64,000 nucleotides of DNA from Brachybacterium halotolerans (GTDB lineage Bacteria > Actinomycetota > Actinomycetes > Actinomycetales > Dermabacteraceae): positions 689,963 through 753,962 of the forward strand of contig NZ_JAEDAJ010000001.1 of NCBI RefSeq assembly GCF_016623465.1. Reading direction: 5' to 3'. The notes below the pieces were generated by a model. It was not told where the DNA came from and did not search any database. It saw only the letters and a program-made list of their open reading frames with translations. Every line of letters begins with the position of its first letter. The first letter of the stretch is position 1. Made by a program: the position numbers and the translations under genes. This document shows, in pieces, positions 38,819 to 43,306 of this stretch.

Positions 38819-40224
38819 CGCCCACTCCCGCGGCCGTCCCGTGAGGCAACGGCATCGAGGTCCCGATCGATCTCAACCGCCGACAGCCGCGGCCCGAGCG
38901 CCGCGCCGAGGACGAGGAGGATCCCGCCGAGCACGAGCAGCGCGAGCACCGCGGCGCGCGGCCCGAGCAGCGCCGAGAGCCAGGGCAGGTAGAACGGGTA
39001 GAGCGCGGGAAGGATCAGCGAGAGGCTGTAGCCCATCCCGTAGCCCGTGGACCGCACCGACGTCGGGAAGCGCTCGGAGAGGTAGGCGGAGACCGGCCCG
39101 TACGCGGCGACGGTGACGACCTGGAGCGCCGCGGCGAGCACGGCCGCACCGGCCAGAGTGCTCGAGCCCACCGCCGTCCACCACAGCACCGGGCCCAGCA
39201 CGGTCGCCGCGATCCCCCACCCGATGAGCAGTCGGCGCCTGCCGGTGCTCGTGGAGAGATGCCCGGCGAGCGCCATCGCGAGCGCCTGCGCGCATGAGGC
39301 GATGCCCATCGCGACCGAGACGCTGGTCGCCGGAAGGCCCGTGTCCTCGCCGAGCTGGGCGGTGAGCATGATGACGGTCGTGTTCGTGAGCAGCCACAGC
39401 CCCGTCATCAGGGTGAAGACCTGCCAGAAGGCGCACGCCCAGCGTCCGCGCAGCATGGCCGCGATGCCCGTGACGGCGGGCTCGTCCTTCGGCTCGGGCC
39501 CCTGGGGCCGCTCGCGCTCGCGCCGGGCGATCGGCGCGTCGACCACGCGCCGTCGGTAGTAGACCAGCATGCCGAGGGAGGCGAGCGCCCCGAGCACGAA
39601 CAGCGCGCGCCAGCCCCAGGCGGCATAGGCGTCGGGCCCCAGGACCAGCAGCAGCGCGGCGGTCGCGAAGGCGATCGCGGCCTGCGCCCACGGCGCCATC
39701 GAGAGGATGAGCCCGCTCATGATGCCGCGCCGTCGCGGGGCCGACCATTCCATGGCCAGGGGGATCGCGGCCGAGTACTCGCCGGCCACGAAGATCCCGC
39801 CGAGGAAGCGCAGGCAGAGGATCAGACCGATCGTCCCCGCACCCAGCAGCTCATGGGTGGGCAAGGCGGCGATCAGCAGGGCGCAGGCGGCCGTGCCGGT
39901 GATCGCGACCTTCGTGGTGCGCGTGCGCCCCAGGCGGTCCGAGATCCTGCCGAAGACCATGCCGCCGACGGGCCTGCCCAGCATCATCGCGATGACCACG
40001 ATCGCTCCCGTGGTGGCGGCGATCCCCGGGCCCGCGACGACGGCGAGCGCCGGGGTCAGCGCGGTGAGCGGCAGGAACACGTGGACGTTGTCGATGAAGT
40101 TGCCGACCACCCCGGCGCGCAGTGCGGCGCGGCCCTCGGGCGGCAGCTGCGGCGTCGGCCCCGCCGGCGGCGGGTGGGCCGCGGCGGCGGTCGTGGTCGG
40201 GCTCTCGGGCAGACGTGACCGCAT
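38815..40224 (-). CDS. MFS transporter under TPP-riboswitch control, candidate thiamine-precursor importer
   Basis: A 469-residue 12-helix major facilitator resembling the metabolite:H+ symporter branch: motif A GRISDRLGRTRTTK, then FVAGEYSAAIPLAMEWSAPR after helix 4. The N-terminal 30 residues and C-terminal tail are cytoplasmic-like. The substrate is not visible from sequence, but a TPP riboswitch directly upstream and ATGA coupling to thiM suggest uptake of thiamine, hydroxyethylthiazole or HMP. I chose the ATG at 40224: GAAGGGATGTCCGCC precedes it, whereas the ATG at 40233 has no spacer from the SD. Confidence 0.88.
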   Translation of the reverse strand: MRSRLPESPTTTAAAAHPPPAGPTPQLPPEGRAALRAGVVGNFIDNVHVFLPLTALTPALAVVAGPGIAATTGAIVVIAMMLGRPVGGMVFGRISDRLGRTRTTKVAITGTAACALLIAALPTHELLGAGTIGLILCLRFLGGIFVAGEYSAAIPLAMEWSAPRRRGIMSGLILSMAPWAQAAIAFATAALLLVLGPDAYAAWGWRALFVLGALASLGMLVYYRRRVVDAPIARRERERPQGPEPKDEPAVTGIAAMLRGRWACAFWQVFTLMTGLWLLTNTTVIMLTAQLGEDTGLPATSVSVAMGIASCAQALAMALAGHLSTSTGRRRLLIGWGIAATVLGPVLWWTAVGSSTLAGAAVLAAALQVVTVAAYGPVSAYLSERFPTSVRSTGYGMGYSLSLILPALYPFYLPWLSALLGPRAAVLALLVLGGILLVLGAALGPRLSAVEIDRDLDAVASRDGRGSGR

Positions 40225-40227
40225 GGC

Positions 40228-40303
40228 GGACATCCCTTCGTCAGTGCGAACTGCATCAGGTTCCACGGGTGTGATCTCAGCGCGCGCGGCGCACCCCGTG
40301 TCC
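40228..40303 (-). promoter_or_regulatory. TPP riboswitch (THI element)
   Basis: On the minus strand the conserved core is complete: CACGGGGTGC, then CTGAGATCACACCCG, then GAACCTGATGCAGTTCGCAC, ending CTGACGAAGGGA. P1 can form between GGACA (40303-40299) and TGTCC (40232-40228). The P1 3' side lies next to the GAAGGG Shine-Dalgarno sequence, so TPP binding should repress translation of the transporter-thiM-thiE operon. Confidence 0.93.
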
Positions 40304-40369
40304 GGCTCGCCAGTATTCCAGAGCCGCCGACGGGGCCGCGGCGCCGTCCGCGGCGACTACCCTTGCCAC

Positions 40370-42292
40370 GTGAGCACTTCGAACCGTGGAACCGCCGACC
40401 GCATCGTCTGGGTCGACTGCGAGATGACCGGACTGGACAAGGAGAAGGACGCGCTCGTCGAGATCGCCGTCCTGGTCACCGATGGTGACCTCAACATCCT
40501 CGGGGAGGGCGTGGACGTGGTCGTCAGGCCCCCGGCCGAGGCGCTGGAGCAGATGGGCGACTTCGTGCGCACCATGCACACGAACTCCGGGCTGCTGGAG
40601 GAGCTGGACGCGGGCATCACCCTCGAGGCCGCGCAGGAGCAGTGCCTGGCCTACGTGCGCGAGCACTGCCCGGAGGCCGGCAAGGCGCCGCTCGCGGGCA
40701 ACTCCGTGGGCACCGACCGCGTGTTCCTCGACAAGGACGTGCCGGAGTTCGCAGCCTGGCTCTCCTATCGCACGATCGACGTCTCGAGCCTCAAGGAGCT
40801 CGCCAAGCGCTGGTTCCCCCGCGTCTTCTACAACACGCCCGCCAAGCACGGGGGCCACCGCGCCCTCGCCGACATCCGCGAGTCCATCCAGGAGCTCAAG
40901 TACTACCGCGAGGTGCTGTTCGTGGCCGACCCGGGGCCGACGACCGCGCAGGCCCAGGCCGCCGCGCGCACCTTCGAGCTCACGGCCGACGGCGAGAGCG
41001 CCGACGGGTCCGACGACGCGGCCGCAGGCGCCGCGGGCTCCTCCGCACCGGCGGTGCCCTGGCTGCAGCGCGCCACCCATCGCACCTGGCTGGACTCCGA
41101 GGGCGAGGAGCTGCTCGTCTTCGGCGCCGAGTCGCTGCGGGAGGACGGCGGCTTCGGATGGCTCGACGAGGACGGCGAGCTCGACGGCGACAAGCCGGCC
41201 GAGCTCTGGGTGACCTGCCGCATGACCCACTGCTTCGCGCTCGCCACGATGCTGGGCAGCCCCGAGTACGGGCGCTTCGTGGACCACGGCATCGAGTCCC
41301 TGCGCACCGTCTTCAGGGACGAGGAGCACGGCGGCTGGTTCTCGAAGATCGCCGGGGAGACCGTCATCGACGACGCCAAGGAGGCCTACGCGCACGCGTT
41401 CGTGGTGCTCGCGGCCGCCTCCGCGACCGCCGCCGGACGCCCGCACGCCGCGGAGCTGCTCGAGGAGGCCCTGGGCGTCCTCGACGAGAAGTTCTACGAC
41501 GAGGAGGCGGGGATGAGCGTGGACACCTTCGACCGCGCCTTCGCCGTCTGCGAGGAGTACCGGGGCATCAACGCGAACATGCACACGACCGAGGCCCTGC
41601 TCGCCGCGGCCGACGTCACCGGGGAGCGCCGCTGGCTGGACCGGGCCGTGGGCATCATGACCCGGGCGATCGACGAGTTCGCGCGCGAGCAGGACTGGCT
41701 GCTGCCGGAGCACTTCGACACCTCGTGGAACCCGATCCTCGACTACAACGAGGACAAGCCGGCCGACCCGTTCCGCCCCTACGGCGCGACCGTCGGCCAT
41801 TGGCTCGAGTGGTCCCGCCTGGTGCTGCACGGGCGCGCCGCGCTGCTCGCGAAGGACGGCGAGGCACCCGAGTGGATGCTCGAGGCCGCGAACGCCCTCA
41901 TGGGCAGGGCCGACGACGCCTTCGGCATGGACGGCGAGCCCGGCTTCCCCTACACGGTGGACTGGGACGGCACGCCCGTGGTGCACGAGCGCATGCACTG
42001 GGTCGCCGCCGAGGCGACCGCCGCCGCGGCCGCGATGTTCCAGGTGACGGGCGACCGGAAGTGGGCCGACCGCTACCAGGCCTGGTGGGAGTACGTCAGC
42101 GAGTTCCTGCTGGATCCCGAGCGGGGCAGCTGGCACCACGAGCTGGACCGGCGCAACCAGCCCCAGGCGCGCACCTGGGAGGGCAAGCCGGACATCTACC
42201 ACGCCTACCAGGCCACGCTCATCCCGCGACTGCCCGTCACCCCGACCATGGCCGCCGCGGTCCGCGACGGCCTGGTCGACGAGATCGGCTGA
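40370..42292 (+). CDS. orn: Oligoribonuclease fused in frame to an AGE-family epimerase/isomerase
   Basis: A single 640-residue frame. Residues 10-200 are a complete DEDDh oligoribonuclease: WVDCEMTGL (Asp16, Glu18), GNSVGTDRVFL, and HGGHRALADIRESI with the catalytic His and Asp. It normally destroys 2-5-nt RNAs and linear c-di-nucleotides. After an Ala/Asp/Ser-rich linker (about 200-225) comes a full alpha/alpha-barrel N-acylglucosamine 2-epimerase-like domain: LREDGGFGWLDEDG, VTCRMTHCFALATML, HTTEALLAA and MHWVAAEATAAAA. There is no stop or ribosome site between them. The GTG start lies at 40370 and the upstream region is divergent from the riboswitch operon. Confidence 0.86.
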   Translation: MSTSNRGTADRIVWVDCEMTGLDKEKDALVEIAVLVTDGDLNILGEGVDVVVRPPAEALEQMGDFVRTMHTNSGLLEELDAGITLEAAQEQCLAYVREHCPEAGKAPLAGNSVGTDRVFLDKDVPEFAAWLSYRTIDVSSLKELAKRWFPRVFYNTPAKHGGHRALADIRESIQELKYYREVLFVADPGPTTAQAQAAARTFELTADGESADGSDDAAAGAAGSSAPAVPWLQRATHRTWLDSEGEELLVFGAESLREDGGFGWLDEDGELDGDKPAELWVTCRMTHCFALATMLGSPEYGRFVDHGIESLRTVFRDEEHGGWFSKIAGETVIDDAKEAYAHAFVVLAAASATAAGRPHAAELLEEALGVLDEKFYDEEAGMSVDTFDRAFAVCEEYRGINANMHTTEALLAAADVTGERRWLDRAVGIMTRAIDEFAREQDWLLPEHFDTSWNPILDYNEDKPADPFRPYGATVGHWLEWSRLVLHGRAALLAKDGEAPEWMLEAANALMGRADDAFGMDGEPGFPYTVDWDGTPVVHERMHWVAAEATAAAAAMFQVTGDRKWADRYQAWWEYVSEFLLDPERGSWHHELDRRNQPQARTWEGKPDIYHAYQATLIPRLPVTPTMAAAVRDGLVDEIG

Positions 42293-42300
42293 TTCAGCCT

Positions 42301-42330
42301 GGCGGCGCCGCCCTCACATGCGGCGCCGCC
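42301..42330. terminator. Bidirectional hairpin between convergent genes
   Basis: GGCGGCGCC and GGCGCCGCC form a 9-bp stem with a 12-nt loop, located 8 nt after the Orn fusion stop and just before the convergent kinase-fusion stop. It could end both transcripts. Confidence 0.65.
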
Positions 42331-42331
42331 C

Positions 42332-43306
42332 TCAGCCCCGGTCGAGGGCGGCGTCGAGGCGCTCGATCTTCCCGTCGAGCTCGCCCTCGTGCCCGGGGCG
42401 GATATCGGCCTTGAGCACGAGGGAGACGCGCGAGCCGAAGCGGCCGGCCTCGGCCGTCGCGCGTCGCACGACGTCCATCACCTCGTCCCAGTCGCCCTCG
42501 ATCTCGGTGAACATCGAGCTGGTGCGGTTCGGGAGCCCGGACTCCCGGACCACGCGGACGGCGGCGGCGACGGCGTCGTGGACGCTCGCGGCGTCGGATC
42601 CCTCGGCGAGGTCGCGGGTGAGGCCGGGATCGGAGGGCTCACCGGTGGGCTGGACGGAGAAGGCGATGATCATGCCCCCACTGTTCTCCCCCATCGGCCC
42701 GCGGGCAAGCGCATCATGCGCTGACGACGGCCCGCGGCTCCTCGAGATCCACTCCCGCAGCCGCGAGACCGTGTCCACGACGGGTGTCCCGGTCGTGTCG
42801 ATGACCTCGACCTGCCACGCGCGCGGCCTCCCGGCGGGAGGCAGCCAGCGCTCCCATCGCATGCCCGGCTCGCCCGTCGCGACGATCACCTCGGGGGCGT
42901 GGGCGGGGTCCGCGGCGTGCCGCCGGTGCCAGCGAGCCCATCCCAGGAACGCGTCGACCTGCGTCGGCGACCACGTCCCGGGATCACGGGCCGCCAATCG
43001 GCGTCGGCGCACCTCGTCCGCGACGTCGAGGAGGCACACCGCCGCGCGCAGGTCTGCGACTTCCGGGACCGCCAGCAGTTCGCCGATCGGCGACTGGCCC
43101 GTGAGCAGCAGGTCCACACCGTGTTCCTCGAGCCGGATCGCCTCGCGCACCCACCAGCGCAGTTCGCGCTGGCGCCAGGCGGTGTCGGCATCGCTCGGCA
43201 CGCCGCGCTCGTCGCTGTCGTGGACCACGAGGCGCGGAAGATCAGCGCACGAGAAGGCCGCCGTGGTCTTCCCGGAGCAGCTGGAGCCGGTCACGAGCAG
43301 GAGCAT
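42332..43306 (-). CDS. P-loop nucleotide kinase fused to MTH1187-type thiamine-binding domain
   Basis: A 324-residue frame. Residues 1-190 are a small P-loop kinase or ATPase with Walker A GSSCSGKTT at the N-terminus (MLLLVTGSSCSGKTTAAF) and helical lid regions. Residues 212-324 match the MTH1187/YkoF-like thiamine-binding family (MIIAFSVQPTGE, SSMFTEIEGDWDEVMDVVRR). No stop separates the two, so translation from 43306 must run through. An internal ATG at 42673 could also make the 113-residue domain alone, but its ribosome site is weak. The substrates are unknown. A fusion is unusual; a missed frameshift in the sequence would be the alternative. Confidence 0.75.
   Translation of the reverse strand: MLLLVTGSSCSGKTTAAFSCADLPRLVVHDSDERGVPSDADTAWRQRELRWWVREAIRLEEHGVDLLLTGQSPIGELLAVPEVADLRAAVCLLDVADEVRRRRLAARDPGTWSPTQVDAFLGWARWHRRHAADPAHAPEVIVATGEPGMRWERWLPPAGRPRAWQVEVIDTTGTPVVDTVSRLREWISRSRGPSSAHDALARGPMGENSGGMIIAFSVQPTGEPSDPGLTRDLAEGSDAASVHDAVAAAVRVVRESGLPNRTSSMFTEIEGDWDEVMDVVRRATAEAGRFGSRVSLVLKADIRPGHEGELDGKIERLDAALDRG

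Follow-up and report, generated by a model that had tools for sequence, protein, structure and literature searches.

In well-studied cases, RNA decay is completed by a small free enzyme, oligoribonuclease (Orn). A 5'-phosphate cap (Ser, Tyr, Arg and Ser) together with a Leu wedge has been linked to dinucleotide preference (excerpt of PMC6613908), and the C-terminal tail helix of Mycobacterium smegmatis Orn packs on the partner subunit (excerpt of PMC9676404). YihS-type isomerases of the AGE superfamily are described as having a three-His active site (excerpt of PMC7762179). Here we describe a gene of Brachybacterium halotolerans in which the Orn domain is covalently tied to a sugar isomerase domain, an arrangement found genus-wide. 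Positions given below are those of the window, that is, the whole 64,000-nucleotide stretch of DNA that was analysed.

Two enzyme domains in one reading frame

The open reading frame at 40370-42292 (+) runs from GTG to TGA and encodes 640 residues without any internal stop. Pfam placed RNase_T at residues 13-175 and GlcNAc_2-epim at residues 260-615, both near the full profile and far over their cut-offs. The AGE superfamily profile PF07221 scored 373.9 bits against a cut-off of 23.4, and the NCBIfam Orn model NF003765 scored 248.8 bits against a cut-off of 106. An earlier sequence-only reading had proposed a complete Orn and a complete AGE domain in one stop-free frame; translation, Pfam and NCBIfam bear this out, and the two domains, each of them complete, are genuinely fused in frame.

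Pfam, NCBIfam, PDB alignment and Foldseek delimit the oligoribonuclease domain to residues 9-190 (40394-40939, +). A C-terminal tail helix follows in the AlphaFold model (residues 192-202; 40943-40975, +), at about the site of the alpha-10 helix described for mycobacterial Orn (excerpt of PMC9676404). The next 27 residues or so (205-231; 40982-41062, +) form a variable Ala/Pro-rich linker, as judged by length, composition and low pLDDT, and the AGE-superfamily domain, YihS/D-mannose isomerase-like by Pfam, NCBIfam, alignment and Foldseek, occupies residues 232-636 (41063-42277, +). The model, built with 25 sequences, showed two confident domains besides the helix, with a mean pLDDT of 85.5 and a pTM of 0.65, and pLDDT fell below 50 at linker residues 212-227. 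Foldseek searches with this model retrieved the Orn/REXO2 structures 9f7m, 7wik and 6n6i for the Orn part and YihS for the AGE part.

The locus was present in 37 of 38 Brachybacterium genomes, and the fusion junction was in frame in all 37; the one genome without it, G026, is a 750-contig assembly that is 88% complete. Thirty-six junctions were read directly, and in the 37th (G015) the locus is split by contig ends, its first piece being stop-free over residues 2-422 and thus across the junction. Three of the 36 genus loci were incomplete beyond the junction, due to contig ends in G029 and G032 and a frameshift near residue 537, within the AGE part, in G027 (assembly 85% complete). Among nine genomes of five other genera of the family, one carried the fusion (G043, Helcobacillus massiliensis) and eight carried split genes (G038-G042 and G044-G046, of which G044 is Micrococcales bacterium 31B and G045 and G046 are Dermabacteraceae TAE3-ERU5 and ERU27). 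Recurrence of the fusion in related genomes, which the sequence-only reading had proposed to look for, was thus confirmed in the 37 genus loci and in Helcobacillus, and each of the six genera had orn and AGE either side by side or joined. Counts over 37 fused loci given below refer to 36 genus loci and the Helcobacillus locus. In these, the stretch from residue 190 to residue 232 measured 31-67 residues, its variable part being 27% Ala and 20% Pro.

Beyond the family, 79 loci were retrieved (56 Orn, 23 AGE), and none contained both genes within flanks of up to 4 kb at Orn loci and about 2.5 kb at the chosen AGE loci, less near contig ends; 20 of the 23 AGE loci were hand-picked, 15 for long open frames (G193 omitted) and 5 as top rows. 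In a draw of 396 genomes of the order, family included, no non-family row among the matches listed spanned both halves, the best of those listed being to AGE alone (4.4e-158, G368). A draw across the phylum gave a fusion-level score (1e-160) in none of 395 other genomes, the one of 396 that passed being the present genome; up to three candidates were scored per genome, so that a strongly diverged fusion could escape.

The oligoribonuclease and AGE halves

The DEDDh residues D16, E18, D116, H163 and D168 were kept in 37/37 fused and 8/8 split loci, and the phosphate cap (S112, Y133, R134, S139) and wedge L22 in 37/37 fused loci. The position of the base-stacking Trp of Vibrio cholerae Orn and REXO2 is not Trp here, nor in either of the two aligned actinobacterial Orn chains. 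Searched with the fusion, the same genome yielded no further match at E values up to 10, and DHH-domain proteins of the RecJ or NrnA type were found in none of 47 family genomes as against 13 of 14 control genomes. Therefore, the Orn half is likely to be the main nanoRNase of the cell, as judged by searches for Orn and DHH-type enzymes. This reading is weaker for G020 and G044, since both carry a second Orn-like gene, at G020:C2:1707277-1707870 (39% identity to the Orn of the fusion) and G044:C13:382789-383301 (38%); the former reads through one TGA. Family models also recognised two further RNase_T-family proteins in the B. halotolerans genome.

The sequence-only reading had also named turnover of c-di-nucleotides as a process of the Orn half. 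This is not supported, as a search for GGDEF proteins, in a draw made up of this genus and of genomes of the order outside the family, found none in 29/29 genus genomes but some in 11 of the 16 others. Removal of pGpG is thus an unlikely reason for Orn in this genus, and a role in c-di-GMP metabolism was rejected on this count. Taken with the absence of DHH proteins, this makes RNA turnover, not c-di-GMP, the probable role of the Orn half.

In the AGE half, H405, H477 and H611 align with His 176, 248 and 383 of YihS, so that all three active-site histidines are present. They were kept in 37, 36 and 35 of the 37 fused loci, respectively; the absences reflect missing sequence in two loci, one at a contig end (L118) and one with a frameshift (L115). 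YihS chains matched the model with 42-43% identity (best-aligned chains) and a TM score of 0.97 by target length in Foldseek. We take Gln362 and Gln379 of YihS, numbered on the 2rgk row, to be the sulfosugar contacts at the sulfonate end. In the alignment these are His and Pro in the fusion, which makes sulfoquinovose a less likely substrate, and with both glutamines absent the AGE half is unlikely to be a sulfoquinovose isomerase. The D-mannose isomerase model NF051846 scored 495.7 bits, below its cut-off of 600, yet it was the best NCBIfam model for this half; it may work like a D-mannose isomerase, though it is not filed as a member of NF051846. A second, distant AGE-family protein is encoded in the same genome (G000:C19:126193-127254, 86.4 bits), and G015 holds an extra AGE-family stretch (G015:C286:4014-5186) that is 47% identical to the AGE part of the fusion.

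In comparisons with the three closest relatives, dN/dS by simple counting was 0.025-0.074 in the Orn part, 0.075-0.141 in the AGE part and 0.17-0.38 in the linker. Against more distant sequences, where the method is less reliable, the values rose to 0.20-0.30, 0.29-0.48 and 0.43-0.83, respectively. These ratios indicate that both domains are under purifying selection.

Origin, expression and products of the fused gene

We consider it likely that one mRNA, probably leaderless, yields one 640-residue protein with two working enzymes, which arose by in-frame joining of orn and AGE. The N-terminal Orn domain would dimerise and cleave di- and short oligoribonucleotides; it would end in the tail helix, which in mycobacterial Orn is packed on the partner subunit, and pass through the loose linker into an AGE-type domain that would convert mannose, or a similar aldose, into the corresponding ketose and back. 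As helix 192-202 of the model sits roughly where the mycobacterial tail helix is found, the AGE domain would hang beyond the dimer clasp on a loose linker, an arrangement that would suit a chain whose two enzymes work independently. This explanation builds on the frame and its conservation, the kept residues, the selection and the split relatives, and from these it predicts both activities, dimerisation, a single uncleaved product and, as the main effect of joining, a fixed 1:1 ratio without any new activity.

The split relatives point to how the joining may have come about. AGE lies directly 3' of orn in 8/8 of them. The distance from the orn stop to the AGE start was 44 nt in G039, 39 nt in G038 and G041, 4 nt in G045 and G046 and 1 nt in G042, and the two genes overlapped by 4 nt in G044 (GTGA) and G040 (ATGA). 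A 5-6 nt Shine-Dalgarno (SD) match lay 5-8 nt before the AGE start in seven of the eight loci, and in the eighth (G040) AGGAGG lay 13 nt upstream of it. Close relatives with two separate genes, which the sequence-only reading had held, together with a frameshift or stop in resequenced DNA, to speak against a true fusion, do exist, in eight of the nine genomes from other genera; their AGE genes have starts of their own, and none of them represents a corrected read of the junction. We propose that the fusion goes back to an earlier orn-AGE pair, overlapping or with little space between the genes, in which an in-frame junction became fixed.

In trees of AGE, Orn+AGE and rpoB, each made from a subset of rows, the Helcobacillus fusion grouped not with Brachybacterium but with a split genus, g2, which we presume is probably Dermabacter. 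AU tests spoke against a single clade of fused rows, with p values of 0.048 for the AGE tree (built on 24 of the 37 fused rows with 8 split and 9 outgroup rows), 0.017 for the Orn+AGE tree (21 of 37 fused and 8 split) and 0.0026 for the rpoB tree (9 fused, 8 split and 6 outgroup genomes). The position of Helcobacillus beside g2 in all three trees requires two changes, either two separate fusions or a fusion followed by a fission, and one fusion without a later split was rejected; exact placement in the trees is less sure because of the long branches of G043, G044 and G040. The two histories are indistinguishable from these counts.

There is about an even chance that the fusion is neutral, that is, that two unrelated enzymes came together by chance and stayed joined because the Orn tail can accommodate an extension, each of them working without a functional link to the other. 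This overlaps with the explanation preferred above, which does not depend on a benefit. The split and overlapping pairs offer a ready mutational path to such an accident, the linker is variable and relaxed, and AGE and Orn stand apart in the 79 loci outside the family. Against it stand the adjacency or fusion of the genes throughout the six genera and the trees, which call for two changes that may both have been fusions; these are hints of a benefit, short of proof. An adaptive joining, in which the Orn dimer and an AGE oligomer form a defined assembly and one half, through its state (such as dinucleotide load or dimerisation), alters the other (sugar flux), the fusion having been selected twice, in Brachybacterium and in Helcobacillus, appears unlikely. 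A functional link of this kind, if true, would raise the importance of the fusion.

The hexamer TACCCT (40358-40363, +), which resembles a -10 element, lies 6 nt before the GTG start of the fusion. A TANNNT sequence 5-8 nt before the start codon was found in 44 of 45 family loci, as compared to 0.69 expected from mononucleotide shuffles, which suggests that the orn mRNA is probably leaderless in fused and split genomes alike. A scan of 40200-42500 for the full sigma-70 consensus and for terminators revealed no site. On the minus strand, a TPP riboswitch (RF00059, 59.1 bits, 40216-40308) precedes a divergent MFS transporter and a hydroxyethylthiazole kinase gene; on the same strand, downstream of the fused gene, is an ORF that codes for a thiamine-binding-protein domain.

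The frame is indeed free of stops, as the sequence-only reading had stated; its further claim, that there is no internal ribosome site, cannot be made from the sequence, because the SD-like GAGGTG at 40910-40915 precedes by 6 nt an in-frame GTG at 40922 (V185; whole motif 40910-40924, +), a possible internal start. Initiation at V185 would give two products, the full fusion and a free AGE enzyme. Thirteen of the 37 fused loci carried the exact motif GAGGTG-N6-GTG, and none of the 8 split loci did. Among loci with EVxxV, it was seen in 13 of 25 fused loci against 6.6 expected from codon use, the rows being related and not independent, and in 0 of 4 split loci against 0.4 expected. In 25/37 fused loci, some in-frame start codon of the Orn tail or the upstream linker was preceded by an SD-like match of at least 4 nt. 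At the AGE boundary itself, the present gene has no SD sequence before an in-frame start; 23/37 fused loci had an in-frame start codon no more than 12 codons from the boundary, with an SD match of at least 4 nt in one of these 23 (L098). However, the exact motif is absent from 24 of the 37 fused loci, that of Helcobacillus included, the counts are phylogenetically dependent, and the same codons specify residues of the Orn domain. A second, AGE-only product is possible, the motif being a hint only, and we think it improbable that the gene makes two products in this way. Still less probable is that proteolysis at the Ala/Pro linker parts the enzymes after translation: the linker is of low confidence in the model and probably disordered, but its middle varies freely in length and sequence among the 37 loci. 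Weakest of all is an artefact, a sequencing or assembly error or a recently lost stop, which the sequence-only reading had considered and for which nothing in this genome speaks, the frameshift in the AGE part of G027 being the one irregularity among relatives; the same open frame in independent genomes, with junctions in frame in all 37 genus loci and Helcobacillus, rules it out.

Comparison with known systems

The sequence-only reading knew of no such fusion, and our search of the open-licence literature agrees, as no earlier description of an Orn-AGE fusion was found there. Orn and AGE are each known kinds of enzyme; as far as this library shows, their joining is unreported. The fusion offers a test case for a link between RNA turnover and sugar metabolism.

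The Orn half shares the DEDDh site, the phosphate cap and a C-terminal tail of the actinobacterial type with the Orn proteins of M. smegmatis (7wik, 227.6 bits in the PDB sequence search) and Blastococcus (9f7m, 228 bits), its best matches among solved structures. Those chains stop after the tail, at 210 and 219 residues, respectively, whereas the fusion continues with a 405-residue enzyme. The AGE half matches YihS of Salmonella and E. coli (2afa, 2rgk, 7ag4), an aldose-ketose and sulfoquinovose isomerase, over the whole domain, with the same fold and the three His aligned; YihS, however, is a free enzyme, and here AGE is part of a fusion. It also shares superfamily, fold and three-His site with the D-mannose isomerases, such as 5x32 of Marinomonas and the Pseudomonas geniculata AGEase (excerpt of PMC7762179). 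The orn-AGE pairs of the family (G038-G042 and G044-G046) resemble the fusion in having the same two enzymes in the same order, but differ from it in making two proteins, with AGE having its own start, the genes being up to 44 nt apart or overlapping by as much as 4 nt. Thus, the family provides a natural series, from gap through 4-nt overlap to fusion, of how neighbouring genes turn into one protein.
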